Shown piece after piece: positions 45,706-50,776 of a stretch of 64,000 nucleotides of DNA; the first letter of the stretch is position 1, and every line of letters begins with the position of its first letter. The stretch lies in NCBI RefSeq assembly GCF_024752305.1, contig NZ_JANTHX010000008.1, forward strand, positions 10,825-74,824, read 5' to 3'. The translations under genes were made by a program, and so were the position numbers. The notes under the pieces were generated by a model. The model had not been told where the DNA came from and did no database searches. It saw only the letters and a list, made by a program, of their open reading frames with translations. This stretch comes from Protaetiibacter mangrovi. Lineage in GTDB: Bacteria > Actinomycetota > Actinomycetes > Actinomycetales > Microbacteriaceae.

Positions 45706-46914
45706 TCAACTCGGAGTGATCGGCACCGGCTCGGTGTCGGGCAGCGGACTGGCGTCCCGGCCGCGCAGATCGGGGTGCGCGCGGCGGAAGATCGTGGGCA
45801 CCAGGAGGCCGACGAACGCGAACACCGCGGCCGCGACGAATCCGCCGTCGGGACCGTAGCCGTCGATGAGGAATCCGGCCACCGCGGAGCCGAGCGCGGC
45901 GCCGATGAGCTGGCCGGTGCCGACCCAGCCGTAGGCCTCGGCCGTGTCGGAGAACTTCACCGAGGCCGACACGATCGAGAACATCACCGCGAGGGCCGGG
46001 GCGATGCCGAGGCCGGCGATCACGAGCGTCGCCGAGATCGTCCAGAACTCGAACGCGAACACGGCCAGCAGCGAACCGACGAACACGATCAGCATGCGCC
46101 GGGCGAGCGCCCACGGACCGATCGGGATGTGCCCGAAGGCGAGTCCGCCGACGAGCGACGCGACCGCCCAGATGCCGAGCACGACCCCCGCCTCGGAGCC
46201 GCCCTCGCCGAAGGTCGCCACGACGCCCGCCTCGATCGCCGCGCAGGATCCGACGAGAAGGAAGCCCACGACGGTCGACAGCAGCACGGCGGGCCGCTTG
46301 AGCACGACGCCGAACCGGCGCTTGCTGCGCGGGATGCGCACCCGGCCGAGCTCGGGCGAGGAGATGAACCAGGCGCCGCCGCCGACGAGGAACACGACCG
46401 AGAGGAAGATGCCGGCGACGGTGGAGACCTGCGTCGCGACGAGCGTCACGACGACGGGCCCCGCGATCCAGATGATCTCCTGCGCGGAGGCGTCGAGCGA
46501 GAACAGCGGGGTCAGCTGCCGGGAGTTCACCATCTTCGGGTAGATGGTGCGCACCGCGGGCTGCACGGGCGGGTAGCTGAGCCCGGCCACGAGACCGGCG
46601 ACCATGAACCCCCACAGGGGCAGCGGGGCCAGGGCGATCGTCGTGAGCGCCAACGCACAGACCGCGGTCGTGAGGATCAGCACGGGACGCATGCCCCAGC
46701 GCCCCATCCAGCGGCTCGTGATCGGACCGGAGATCGCCTGGCCGACCGAGGTCGCGCCGAGCACCAGACCGGCTGCGCCGTAGCTGTCGAAGATGCGCTC
46801 GATGTGGATGAGGAAGCCGAGCGAGATCATGCCGCTCGGGAAGCGCGCCACCAATTGCGCGGCGATGATCCGGGCGACACCCCGGGTGCGCAGCAGGTCG
46901 AGGTACGCGTTCAC
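45706..46914 (-). CDS. major facilitator superfamily transporter
   Basis: A 402-residue protein with twelve predicted helices, of the MFS drug/metabolite exporter type. The loop between helices 2 and 3 reads GPITSRWMGRWGMRP, a modified motif A. The GTG start has GGGAGGG 4 nt upstream. It is the only gene between the LuxR-type regulator and nrdA. No substrate can be inferred. Confidence 0.88.
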   Translation of the reverse strand: MNAYLDLLRTRGVARIIAAQLVARFPSGMISLGFLIHIERIFDSYGAAGLVLGATSVGQAISGPITSRWMGRWGMRPVLILTTAVCALALTTIALAPLPLWGFMVAGLVAGLSYPPVQPAVRTIYPKMVNSRQLTPLFSLDASAQEIIWIAGPVVVTLVATQVSTVAGIFLSVVFLVGGGAWFISSPELGRVRIPRSKRRFGVVLKRPAVLLSTVVGFLLVGSCAAIEAGVVATFGEGGSEAGVVLGIWAVASLVGGLAFGHIPIGPWALARRMLIVFVGSLLAVFAFEFWTISATLVIAGLGIAPALAVMFSIVSASVKFSDTAEAYGWVGTGQLIGAALGSAVAGFLIDGYGPDGGFVAAAVFAFVGLLVPTIFRRAHPDLRGRDASPLPDTEPVPITPS

Positions 46915-46977
46915 GGCCCTCCCACTGTAGTGCCGCGGGGCAGGCGGCGGAGGGGGTGTCGGCCGCCCCTCCTAGGG

Positions 46978-47026
46978 TGTGGAAAGTGTGAATAACACGG
47001 GTGAAGTTATGCACATCTGTGGATGA
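46978..47026. promoter_or_regulatory. cluster of four DnaA-box-like sequences upstream of nrdA
   Basis: TGTGGAAAG (46978-46986), TGTGAATAA (46987-46995), TTATGCACA (47007-47015) and TGTGGATGA (47018-47026). Two of them (TGTGAATAA read as TTATTCACA, and TTATGCACA) and TGTGGATGA (TCATCCACA) are one base from TTATCCACA; the first is two away. The region is markedly AT-richer than its surroundings. DnaA control of nrd is known in E. coli; here it is inferred. Confidence 0.6.
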
Positions 47027-47034
47027 CACGCCCA

Positions 47035-47077
47035 CAACATCTGGGGTTGGCCTGCCGTCGGGGGCCCGATATATAGT
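47035..47077 (+). promoter_or_regulatory. NrdR-box pair and promoter of nrdA
   Basis: CAACATCTGG (47035-47044) and CGATATATAG (47067-47076) both fit the NrdR core CwAtATaTwG, the second with only one mismatch. They are 32 bp apart, three helical turns, as usual for NrdR box pairs. TTGGCC (47047-47052) and TATATA (47070-47075), 17 nt apart, form a promoter whose -10 lies inside the second box, fitting repression. Confidence 0.72.
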
Positions 47078-47201
47078 GGTGGAACCTCCGGGCCGGGGGA
47101 GTGCGACGAAGGACGAGAACGGCCTGTCGAGGTCGTTTCTCACCAGGGATTTTCATCGGAATGCGGGGCGCGCAGGACTGCGCGGGGAGGAAAGGGATCA
47201 C

Positions 47202-49670
47202 GTGACCATCACCGTCGTGAAGCGCAACGGAGAGCGCGAGCCGTACGACGCCAACAAGATCAACCTGGCGATCGAGCACGCGAGCGCCGGACTCGACGAG
47301 AACATCACCTGGGTGACCCAGATCGCGTCGGAGCTCGAGCTGACGCTCTTCGACGGCATCACCACCCAGCAGCTCGACGAGGCCGTCATCCAGGTCGCGC
47401 TCCAGAACGTGAAGGACGACCCGCAGTTCGACACGGTCGCCGCGCGGCTGCTGCTCAAGACCATCTACAAGCGCGTGCTCGGCGACTACGAGACCGACGA
47501 CGAGCTGAAGGCGCTGCACGCCGCCCACTTCCGCGGCGCCATCGAGCGCGGCGTCGACGAGGCGCTGCTCGATTCGCGCTTCCCCGCGCTCTTCGACCTC
47601 GACCGCCTCGCCGCCGCCCTCGAGCCCGCCCGCGACGGGCTGCTCAAGTACATCGGCGTCGTCACCCTCAACAACCGCTACGGCATCAAGGCCCGCAACG
47701 GCGAGCCGCTCGAGGTGCCCCAGTTCTTCTGGATGCGCATCGCGATGGGCCTCTCGCTCAACGAGGCCGACCCGACCAGCCACGCGATCGAGTTCTACGA
47801 CAAGATGTCGAAGCTCGAGTACCTGGCGGCCGGCTCCACCCTCGTCAACGCGGGCACCGCCTTCCCGCAGCTCTCCAACTGCTTCGTCATGGAGATGCAC
47901 GACGACATCGAGCACATCGCGAAGTCCGTGCGCGACGTCATGTGGCTCACCAAGGGCACCGGCGGAATCGGCCTCTCGGTCACCAAGCTCCGCTCGCAGG
48001 GCTCGCCCATCCGCTCCAACAACACCACCTCGACGGGTCCGATCCCGTTCATGCACACGATCGACTCGGTGCTGCGCGCGGTCAGCCGCGGCGGCAAGAA
48101 GTTCGGCGCCCTGTGCTTCTACATGGAGAACTGGCACCTCGACTTCCCCGAGTTCCTCGAGCTGCGCAACAACTCCGGCGACCCGTACCGCCGCACCCGC
48201 ACCGCCAACACGGCCGTCTGGATCTCCGACGAGTTCATGAAGCGCGTGCAGAACGACGGCGACTGGTACCTCTTCGACCCGCTCGAGGTGGGCGACCTCA
48301 ACGAGCTCTACGGGCAGGCGTTCTCCGACCGCTACGCGGAGTACGTCGCGAAGGCCGAGGCCGGCGAGCTGCGGATGTTCAAGAAGATCTCGGCGCGCGC
48401 CCAGTTCAAGGACATCCTGATGTCGCTCCAGACCACGAGCCACCCGTGGCTCACCTGGAAGGACACCATCAACAACCGCGCCCTCAACAACAACACGGGC
48501 ACCATCCACCTCTCGAACCTCTGCACCGAGATCTGCCTCCCGCAGGACCTCGAGAACATCTCCGTCTGCAACCTGGCCTCCATCAACCTCTCGACCCACC
48601 TCAAGGTCGACGAGAACGGCGGCCTCGGATTCGACTGGGCGCTCATCGAGGGCTCGGCCCGCAGCGCGGTGCGCCAGCTCGACAACCTCATCGACATCAC
48701 CGAGTCGTCGGTGGCGGAGGCCGACCACGCCAACCAGACCAACCGTGCCATCGGCCTCGGCGTCATGGGCTTCACGGACGTCGTGGAGCGCCTCGGCTTC
48801 TCCTACGAGTCCGAAGAGGCGTACGCCCTCATGGACGAGATCATGGAGCACGTCTCCTACGCGGCCATCGACGAGTCGGCCGACCTCGCCCGCGAGCGCG
48901 GCTCCTACGACAACTTCGCGGGCAGCCGCTGGTCGCAGGGCCTCGTGCCGTTCGACTCGATCGCGCTCACCGAGAAGGACCGCGGCATCGCCATCACCGT
49001 CGACCGCACCACGCGGCTCGACTGGGACCGCCTGCGCGAGAAGGTCAAGGGCGGCATGCGCAACGCGACGCTCATGGCGATCGCGCCCACCGCGTCCATC
49101 GGTCTCGTCGCCGGCACCACCCCCGGCCTCGACCCGCAGTTCGCGCAGATCTTCAGCCGCGCCACCTCGAACGGCAAGTTCCTCGAGGTCAACCGCAACC
49201 TCGTGAACGACCTGCAGAAGCTCGGCATCTGGGAGCAGACCCGCGAGCAGGTGCTGCGCAGCCAGGGCGACATCCAGAACATCGCCGACATCCCCGACGA
49301 CCTCAAGAAGGTCTACAAGACGAGCTTCCAGCTCTCGCCGTACTCGTTCATCGAGGTGGCGGCGCGCGCCCAGAAGTGGATCGACCAGGCCATCAGCCGC
49401 AACATGTACCTCGAGACGCGCGACCTCGGCGACATGATGGACATCTACTACGCCGCGTGGGAGAAGGGCGTCAAGACGACCTACTACCTGCACATGAAGC
49501 CGCGGCACACCGCCGAGCAGTCCACGGTCAAGGTCAACAAGACCGAGGAGCTGAACACCGGCGCCGGCGCGCAGCGCGGGTTCGGCGCGGCCGCCGCCGC
49601 GCCGGCATCCGAGGCTCCGGCGGCCCCCGCCGCCGCCTCCCCGCGTCGCGGATTCGGGGGCCTCGCGTGA
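47202..49670 (+). CDS. nrdA: ribonucleoside-diphosphate reductase alpha subunit (class I), tail in another frame
   Basis: An 822-residue catalytic subunit making deoxyribonucleotides. An ATP-cone (VTITVVKRNGEREPYDANKI onward) gives dATP control. Active-site residues are intact: Cys227 (LSNCFV), Cys441 and Glu443 (NLCTEICLP) and Cys456 (SVCNLAS). GTG 47202 follows GGGAGGAAAGGG; the frame is open further up but crosses the promoter. The protein stops after RRGFGGLA without the C-terminal Cys pair needed to re-reduce the active site. That pair is encoded immediately after in the -1 frame (49667-49750), so this gene is either split, frameshifted or misread by one base. Confidence 0.93.
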   Translation: MTITVVKRNGEREPYDANKINLAIEHASAGLDENITWVTQIASELELTLFDGITTQQLDEAVIQVALQNVKDDPQFDTVAARLLLKTIYKRVLGDYETDDELKALHAAHFRGAIERGVDEALLDSRFPALFDLDRLAAALEPARDGLLKYIGVVTLNNRYGIKARNGEPLEVPQFFWMRIAMGLSLNEADPTSHAIEFYDKMSKLEYLAAGSTLVNAGTAFPQLSNCFVMEMHDDIEHIAKSVRDVMWLTKGTGGIGLSVTKLRSQGSPIRSNNTTSTGPIPFMHTIDSVLRAVSRGGKKFGALCFYMENWHLDFPEFLELRNNSGDPYRRTRTANTAVWISDEFMKRVQNDGDWYLFDPLEVGDLNELYGQAFSDRYAEYVAKAEAGELRMFKKISARAQFKDILMSLQTTSHPWLTWKDTINNRALNNNTGTIHLSNLCTEICLPQDLENISVCNLASINLSTHLKVDENGGLGFDWALIEGSARSAVRQLDNLIDITESSVAEADHANQTNRAIGLGVMGFTDVVERLGFSYESEEAYALMDEIMEHVSYAAIDESADLARERGSYDNFAGSRWSQGLVPFDSIALTEKDRGIAITVDRTTRLDWDRLREKVKGGMRNATLMAIAPTASIGLVAGTTPGLDPQFAQIFSRATSNGKFLEVNRNLVNDLQKLGIWEQTREQVLRSQGDIQNIADIPDDLKKVYKTSFQLSPYSFIEVAARAQKWIDQAISRNMYLETRDLGDMMDIYYAAWEKGVKTTYYLHMKPRHTAEQSTVKVNKTEELNTGAGAQRGFGAAAAAPASEAPAAPAAASPRRGFGGLA

Positions 49671-49780: not shown

Positions 49781-50776
49781 ATGGCCATTCTCGGCACCGG
49801 GGTCCAGGAAGGACTCCTCCTCAAGCCCATCACCTACCAGTGGGCGATGGACCTCTACGACCAGGCGGTCGCCAACACCTGGTTCCCCAACGAGATCCAG
49901 CTCGGCGAAGACCTCGCCGACTTCAAGAAGATGACCGACGAGGAGCGACACGCGGTCACCTTCCTGATCTCGTACTTCAACCCCAACGAGCTGCTCGTCA
50001 ACAAGGCGCTCGCGTTCGGCGTCTACCCCTACGTCAACGCCCCCGAGGCGCACCTCTACCTCGCGAAGCAGATGTGGGAGGAGGCCAACCACTGCATGTC
50101 GTTCGAGTACGTGCTCGAGACGTTCCCGATCGACCGCAACGAGGCCTACAACTCGCACGTCGACATCCCGTCGATGGCGCGCAAAGAGGAGTTCGAGGTC
50201 CGCTTCATCAAGCGGATGACCGAGGAGACCCTCGACATCACGACGACGGCGGGCAAGCAGGACTTCATCCGCAACCTGATCGCCTACAACATCATCCTCG
50301 AAGGCATCTGGTTCTACTCGGGCTTCATGGTGGCGCTCTCGTTCCGTCAGCGGAACCTGCTGCGCAACTTCGGCTCGCTCGTCGACTGGATCGTGCGCGA
50401 CGAGTCGCTGCACCTCAAGTTCGGCATCAACCTCATCCTCACGGTGCTCGACGAGAACCCCGACCTGCAGACGCCGGAGTTCGCGGCCGAGATCAAGCAG
50501 ATGATCCTCGACGCCGTCGAGATGGAGGAGCAGTACAACAACGACCTGCTCCCCGGCGGCATCCTCGGACTCAACGCGAGCTACATCAACCAGTACGTGA
50601 AGTACCTCGCCGACCGCCGCCTCGAGGAGCTCGGCTTCGGGTCGCACTACAACGTGGTGAACCCGGCCAAGTGGATGGCGACGGCGAACGACACCCTGCA
50701 GCTCGTCAACTTCTTCGAGTCGACGAACACCTCCTACGAGTCGAACGCCTCGGCCTCGTCCAAGCGCTCCGAGTAG
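49781..50776 (+). CDS. nrdB: ribonucleoside-diphosphate reductase beta subunit, class Ic-like
   Basis: A 331-residue ferritin-like subunit that generates the radical for NrdA. Metal ligands line up as Glu70 (FNPNELLVN), Glu101 and His104 (EEANHCMSF), Glu174 (LEGIWF), Glu208 and His211 (DESLH). The position four after His104, where class Ia enzymes have the radical Tyr, is Phe108. The first ligand is Glu rather than Asp. Both changes are hallmarks of class Ic (Chlamydia-type, Mn/Fe cofactor). GAAGGA lies about 11 nt before the ATG. No nrdI gene is adjacent, consistent with not being class Ib. Confidence 0.92.
   Translation: MAILGTGVQEGLLLKPITYQWAMDLYDQAVANTWFPNEIQLGEDLADFKKMTDEERHAVTFLISYFNPNELLVNKALAFGVYPYVNAPEAHLYLAKQMWEEANHCMSFEYVLETFPIDRNEAYNSHVDIPSMARKEEFEVRFIKRMTEETLDITTTAGKQDFIRNLIAYNIILEGIWFYSGFMVALSFRQRNLLRNFGSLVDWIVRDESLHLKFGINLILTVLDENPDLQTPEFAAEIKQMILDAVEMEEQYNNDLLPGGILGLNASYINQYVKYLADRRLEELGFGSHYNVVNPAKWMATANDTLQLVNFFESTNTSYESNASASSKRSE

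Follow-up and report, generated by a model that had tools for sequence, protein, structure and literature searches.

In the 64,000-nucleotide stretch of Protaetiibacter mangrovi DNA analysed here (the window), the nrdA gene (47202..49670, plus strand, GTG start; NF005101, 1603 bits) encodes the alpha subunit of ribonucleoside-diphosphate reductase, and nrdB (49781..50776, plus strand; NF007186, 399 bits) encodes the beta subunit. A divergently transcribed MFS transporter gene (45706..46914, minus strand; PF07690) shares its intergenic region with nrdA. A PF02867 profile search of the 2.98-Mb host assembly found nrdA as its only RNR large subunit, and no nrdH was found in the same assembly. Among named genomes, the best match to the window's nrdA is in Homoserinibacter, with 94% to Homoserinibacter sp. 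GY 40078, and the MFS gene was matched at 95 of 100 nrdA loci. Between the two genes lie an upstream promoter-like motif (P1), a cluster of DnaA-box-like sites, the element GACACGCC and a pair of NrdR-like boxes around the main promoter (P2); no riboswitch or other Rfam RNA was found in 46900-47300 at E-values up to 1.

The upstream regions of nrdA were compared across 154 loci. One of them (L062) was dropped as it had only 222 bp of upstream sequence, and the remaining 153 yielded 130 distinct regions, from which the 127 containing TATAGTG make up the scored set, referred to below as the relatives. Outside of it are L207 and L212, which have TGTAGTG in place of TATAGTG and, read by eye, contain DnaA boxes and ACACGCC, and L214, from a reduced genome (G020, about 0.9 Mb), where the NrdR pair is kept and, by eye, the DnaA boxes, the PafBC motif and GACACGCC are absent.

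The original prediction described two NrdR-like boxes 32 bp apart, with the -10 inside the second, downstream of four DnaA-box-like 9-mers within 49 bp (46978-47026); direct reading of the sequence agreed on both counts. In particular, NrdR box 1 (47032..47047, plus strand) is CCACAACATCTGGGGT, where the consensus of the 127 relatives is CCACtAcAT.T.GgGt, and NrdR box 2 (47064..47079, plus strand) is GCCCGATATATAGTGG, which covers the -10 and contains TATATA/TATAGT (47070-47077). A -35-like hexamer of P2, TTGGCC (47047..47052, plus strand), was recognised by eye 17 bp 5′ of TATATA, and its first two positions are T in 72% and 65% of relatives. The centre-to-centre distance of 32 bp corresponds to a 16-bp spacer, as expected of an NrdR-regulated RNR promoter; NrdR proteins prefer box spacers of about 15-17 bp, according to the available text of two studies (PMC12051234, PMC9110341). 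Further, the genome encodes an NrdR protein with a zinc ribbon and an ATP cone (PF22811, PF03477, and TIGR00244 at 146 bits). All 127 relatives have the NrdR pair, with centre distances of 32 bp in 112, 33 bp in 11 and 31 bp in 4; because the first box was taken as the best match 20-47 bp away from the second, the evidence here is the concentration of distances at 32 bp. A third NrdR box over TTATGCACATCTGTGG was considered by eye and rejected, as its distance of 24 bp to box 1 puts it out of phase. When dNTPs are ample, NrdR loaded with dATP/ATP would bind both boxes, flanking the -35 and covering the -10, and P2 would be turned off.

The DnaA-box-like sites consist of box A (46978..46986, minus strand; CTTTCCACA), which has 2 mismatches to TTRTCCACA and overlaps the end of the P1 -10, and three sites with 1 mismatch: box B (46987..46995, minus strand; TTATTCACA), box C (47007..47015, plus strand; TTATGCACA) and box D (47018..47026, minus strand; TCATCCACA). 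Box D is 2 bp from box C and overlaps GACACGCC by 2 bp, and each of boxes B, C and D is one base off the strongest DnaA box. The unusual feature of DnaA boxes in the window is their clustering and not their number, which is ordinary (TTRTSCACA occurs 10 times when up to 1 mismatch is allowed, versus 7.4 expected). With up to 1 mismatch, three of the six sites in the 64-kb window fall within one 48-bp stretch, where the largest cluster in 60 dinucleotide shuffles is 2; with up to 2 mismatches, the cluster grows to 4, and shuffles of the window (60, dinucleotide) never exceed 3.

The cluster is conserved. Across the 127 relatives, the 9144 bases of a 72-bp segment contain 334 DnaA boxes (36.5 per kb; shuffle mean of 6), compared to 23 in 22826 bases upstream (1.0 per kb) and a single one in 15784 bases downstream (0.06 per kb). 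At least two DnaA boxes occur in this segment in 120/127 relatives, where shuffling leaves almost no boxes. The inverted C/D pair has a spacing of 2 bp in 93 relatives and 3 bp in 21, and is absent in 13; where it is present, an additional minus-strand box lies upstream of the pair in 108/114. Conservation of the boxes in relatives was one of the checks that the original prediction had set for itself, and it came out in favour of the prediction for the NrdR pair (127/127) and the DnaA boxes (at least two in 120/127) alike.

The C at position 2 of box D, found in almost all relatives, would suit a different protein, with a specificity for TGTGGA-type sequences, binding these TTATNCACA-like sites in place of DnaA. 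This alternative is highly improbable, however, as the variants resemble those of the genome's own dnaA promoter and origin region: the box B 9-mer TTATTCACA and close variants recur in the dnaA promoter, and TTATCCACA is found in the dnaA-dnaN interval. Moreover, the 2-3 bp pair spacing is what E. coli DnaA requires, as stated in the available part of PMC11317965, and, among the 114 relatives that have the pair, 39 show the consensus TTATCCACA or TTGTCCACA as box C. The genome encodes intact DnaA and NrdR genes, and the assignment of the sites to these two proteins is, as a prediction from sequence, well supported. Between P1 and P2, DnaA would bind the inverted pair together with one or two more boxes and link transcription to the initiation of replication; since box A overlaps the P1 -10, DnaA could block P1 while acting on P2 from upstream. 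The DnaA input would not be essential everywhere, because two relatives (L054 and L075) have no DnaA boxes upstream of nrdA and the reduced-genome locus L214 has NrdR boxes alone.

While conservation and intact genes spoke for the original prediction of joint DnaA and NrdR control, the prediction was incomplete, as it missed two PafBC-type promoter motifs and GACACGCC. The P1 motif, TGTCGG-N10-TAGGGT (46957..46978, plus strand), is a perfect example of the PafBC/RecA-NDp type and starts just upstream of, and outside, the interval that the prediction covered. The 64-kb window has no other match to TGTC(GG/AG/AC)-N10-TAnnnT; the P2 motif, CGTCGG-N10-TATAGT (47056..47077, plus strand), has one mismatch in the window species and does not match this pattern by itself. 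As far as the available portions of the papers go, the motif is given as TGTCGG-10xN-TA-3xN-T (PMC8151990), with the RecA-NDp consensus published in PMC5656591, and later work assigns it to PafBC with the housekeeping holoenzyme (PMC11804915, PMC8223512); single-stranded DNA activates PafBC, which works with the housekeeping polymerase via a -26 element (PMC11804915).

Both motifs recur at fixed spacing in the relatives. At P2, TGTCRG lies exactly 10 bp before TATAGT in 60/127, and none of the other spacings between 0 and 39 is seen more than once; upstream, TGTCRG-N10-YAnnnT is present in 64/127 (48 with TA), again with at most one at any other spacing. Overall, 102/127 relatives have a PafBC-type motif at P1, P2 or both, and 25/127 have neither. 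In the 2.98-Mb genome, a stricter form of this motif matches at 9 sites (L118-L126), versus 1 for the control. Five of these matches precede recA, uvrB, polA, dnaB and an HU-type gene (named by eye), and the other four precede two transporters, an exonuclease-like gene and a toxin-antitoxin-like gene, with no evident link to damage; together, these sites may provide a first sketch of the PafBC regulon in the genus. PafBC is encoded in the same genome whose known damage genes carry the motif: PafC (PF19187, HTH domain) stands beside a WYL/WCX partner. A search for a LexA/SOS box in 46900-47200 was also made, and the candidate was rejected, its best match having 4 mismatches to the consensus.

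P1 could also be a true promoter that is driven by ClgR or by housekeeping sigma-A, which we consider distinctly unlikely; the same mycobacterial motif was once proposed to be read by ClgR (available text of PMC5656591), but its later attribution to PafBC with the housekeeping holoenzyme (available text of PMC11804915 and PMC8223512) and the presence of PafC and its WYL partner in this genome both point away from it. By its motif, nrdA would instead receive a PafBC input: upon DNA damage, single-stranded DNA would activate PafBC, which would then bring sigma-A RNA polymerase to P1 (in many relatives, to P2 as well).

The element GACACGCC (47025..47032, plus strand) is an oriented, putative WhiA site (GACAC) that is fused to DnaA box D. 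GACACGC is present in 126/127 nrdA promoters, including both that lack any DnaA box (L054 and L075), and in most relatives GACACGCC abuts a DnaA box; at five loci, GACACGC is 15 bp from NrdR box 1, rather than 5-6 bp. The genome encodes WhiA (TIGR00647, 310 bits) and two WhiB-like proteins, so that motif and WhiA gene are both present, with GACAC being a short 5-mer that is common in GC-rich genomes. In Streptomyces, according to the available text of PMC3781837, the WhiA consensus is GACAC, a WhiA footprint lies upstream of nrdR, infA is a target, the GACAC sites show no consistent orientation, and WhiA acts on nrdR and not directly on nrdAB. Of the four assignments, WhiA is the weakest, made by motif and here called putative. 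A WhiA-type regulator would bind GACACGCC in competition with DnaA at box D or jointly with it; as the element has two bases in common with box D, the two proteins would either compete or form a composite. GACACGCC was also considered as the -35 of a divergent MFS promoter and was dropped, since no -10 was seen by eye at a fixed distance.

The composite TGTGGANGACACGCC occurs in 67/159 family genomes and, by coordinate comparison, mostly at nrdA. Away from nrdA, with the genes named by eye, it lies upstream of nrdH (L161, L162 and L165), by a dnaN-side origin region (L142 and L143), in a dnaA promoter (L172) and at infA (L163 and L164); there is no evident link at L148, L166-L171 and L173. The two infA loci have TGTGGATGACACGCC upstream, and infA is a WhiA target in Streptomyces (available text of PMC3781837). 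Two of the loci with no evident link, L171 and L173, show a DnaA-box, GACACGCC and NrdR-box-1-like arrangement before genes that, judged by eye, are unlike RNR subunits. In the window species, a search of 7 kb around dnaA-dnaN gave no match to GACACGCC.

A simpler arrangement would have DnaA and NrdR as the only inputs, with TGTCRG as an ordinary feature of sigma-A promoters in the family and GACACGCC as an extension of the DnaA box. That GACACGCC adjoins a DnaA box in most relatives, and also stands beside DnaA boxes at a dnaN-side origin region (L142 and L143) and in a dnaA promoter (L172), fits such an extension. However, GACACGC is retained in L054 and L075 despite their lost DnaA boxes, it keeps a distance of 15 bp, not 5-6 bp, from NrdR box 1 at the five loci mentioned above, and a copy of GACACGCC is separate from the DnaA boxes in nrdH regions. 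With no more than 9 copies in the 2.98-Mb genome, the strict TGTCRG form is also not the general promoter. On balance, control by only two proteins appears unlikely, and the four-input reading is preferred.

A related control strip lies upstream of nrdHIEF in relatives without this NrdA. Across 159 Microbacteriaceae genomes, NrdA is found in 68 and NrdH in 91, and the two are almost mutually exclusive: 66 genomes have NrdA only, 89 have NrdH only, 2 have both (G044 and G159) and 2 have neither. The nrdH set comprises the best match per genome in 90 of the 91 genomes with a match; the remaining genome, G059, was examined separately as L165. Within 500 bp, GACACGCC is present in 80/90 nrdH upstream regions, while its reverse complement is found in 5 and a reversed control in 1. 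TGTCRG-N10-TAnnnT is present in 45/90 regions, with at most 3 at other spacings, and a match resembling NrdR box 2 occurs in 65/90 by a rough pattern. The density of DnaA boxes is 5.5 per kb over the final 400 bp, versus about 0.1 per kb further out. In six nrdH regions (L230, L232, L245, L246, L249 and L285), 2-3 copies of GACACGCC form a direct repeat, 8-11 bp apart. At 33/90 nrdH loci, a divergent MFS gene lies 298-525 bp away, whose product is 48-70% identical to the MFS protein of the window.

The sharing of the strip could have arisen either by exchange of the operon in place or from an ancestor that had both operons and then lost one. A bolder and tentative proposal, which we hold to be somewhat improbable, is that of a portable replication-supply module: the Microbacteriaceae strip may have stayed beside the MFS gene while nrdAB and nrdHIEF were swapped below it, reading nucleotide level (NrdR), initiation (DnaA), damage (PafBC) and division or growth state (WhiA), with TGTGGAYGACACGCC acting as a dedicated DnaA-WhiA switch that, in some genomes, is also placed near origins and dnaA.

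Outside of the family, the strip is found in part. Within the same order (L308-L322), at least one DnaA box is present in 14/15 regions, L318 (another genus) having none, and GACAC occurs somewhere in the 500 bp in 15/15. Members of other Micrococcales families (L324-L328) have a cobalamin riboswitch (RF00174) before nrdA instead of the DnaA, NrdR and PafBC strip, and the more distant L329-L336 have none of the strip bar stray GACAC matches. A set of 32 non-family nrdH regions was composed of 12 of the best-ranked loci and 20 hand-chosen ones, from 181 genomes with a match (family members included). At least two DnaA boxes are present in 24 of these regions, and GACAC is present in 30, anywhere in 500 bp and hence a weak test. 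The PafBC-type motif is present in only 7 of the 32, which suggests that the PafBC part belongs mainly to Microbacteriaceae.

Taken together, the genome's only RNR large subunit found is probably under a compact multi-input control region that reads NrdR, DnaA, PafBC and WhiA. The motifs, their spacing and their conservation are established, as is the presence of genes for all four regulators. We infer from these which protein binds each motif, the sign of each effect, the response to damage and the link to cell division. Most of what is known about how bacteria keep their dNTP supply in step with replication and damage comes from E. coli, and the host group, Microbacteriaceae, includes many soil species and also plant pathogens. 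If the reading is correct, the PafBC damage response would extend to dNTP supply, and WhiA would be linked directly to DNA synthesis, outside of Streptomyces. Moreover, a conserved four-input promoter, many of whose inputs were kept across a change of enzyme class, would offer a natural comparison through which the most important signals could be identified.

In the open-access literature, no report was found on the four-input arrangement in Microbacteriaceae, on Microbacteriaceae RNR promoters, or on NrdR boxes with RNR or DnaA boxes with nrd in Actinobacteria; among the matches listed there, no paper contains PafBC together with NrdR, while PMC9739823 and PMC8044303 contain WhiA, NrdR and DnaA jointly. 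The main texts of the PafBC papers covered (including PMC11804915, PMC8223512 and PMC8151990) do not mention nrd, and the literature covered yielded no data on WhiA in Microbacteriaceae.

The original prediction was right in citing an E. coli precedent for DnaA with NrdR at nrd (available text of PMC12176259 and PMC11317965). The combined control of E. coli nrdAB by both proteins is already known (PMC12176259, available text), and E. coli DnaA binds box pairs 2 or 3 bp apart, including at nrdA, in tandem (PMC11317965, available text). As in E. coli, a DnaA pair with 2-3 bp spacing lies upstream of a promoter with an NrdR pair about three helical turns apart; in contrast, the E. coli DnaA pair is tandem, whereas here it is inverted, though its spacing is 2-3 bp in 114/127 relatives. 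E. coli nrdAB further differs in its H-NS input, where here two PafBC-type motifs and GACACGCC are interleaved. E. coli nrdAB also has a Fis input, and to our knowledge E. coli has no PafBC or WhiA.

Streptomyces nrdAB and nrdRJ similarly have an NrdR pair about three helix turns apart that overlaps the polymerase site. Streptomycete nrdAB carries a cobalamin riboswitch, which is absent from this window and found in other Micrococcales. WhiA binds upstream of nrdR in Streptomyces, and here a putative WhiA site lies upstream of nrdA; the control by WhiA in Streptomyces is, in contrast, reported to be indirect, via nrdR. The RecA-NDp promoters that mycobacteria have at recA and further repair genes, which depend on PafBC, contain the same TGTCGG-N10-TAnnnT motif, but here it stands before an RNR operon and is combined with NrdR and DnaA sites. 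Finally, the Streptomyces WhiA/WhiB targets share GACAC, and infA is a common target (L163 and L164), whereas the element described here has a fixed orientation and is fused to a DnaA box.
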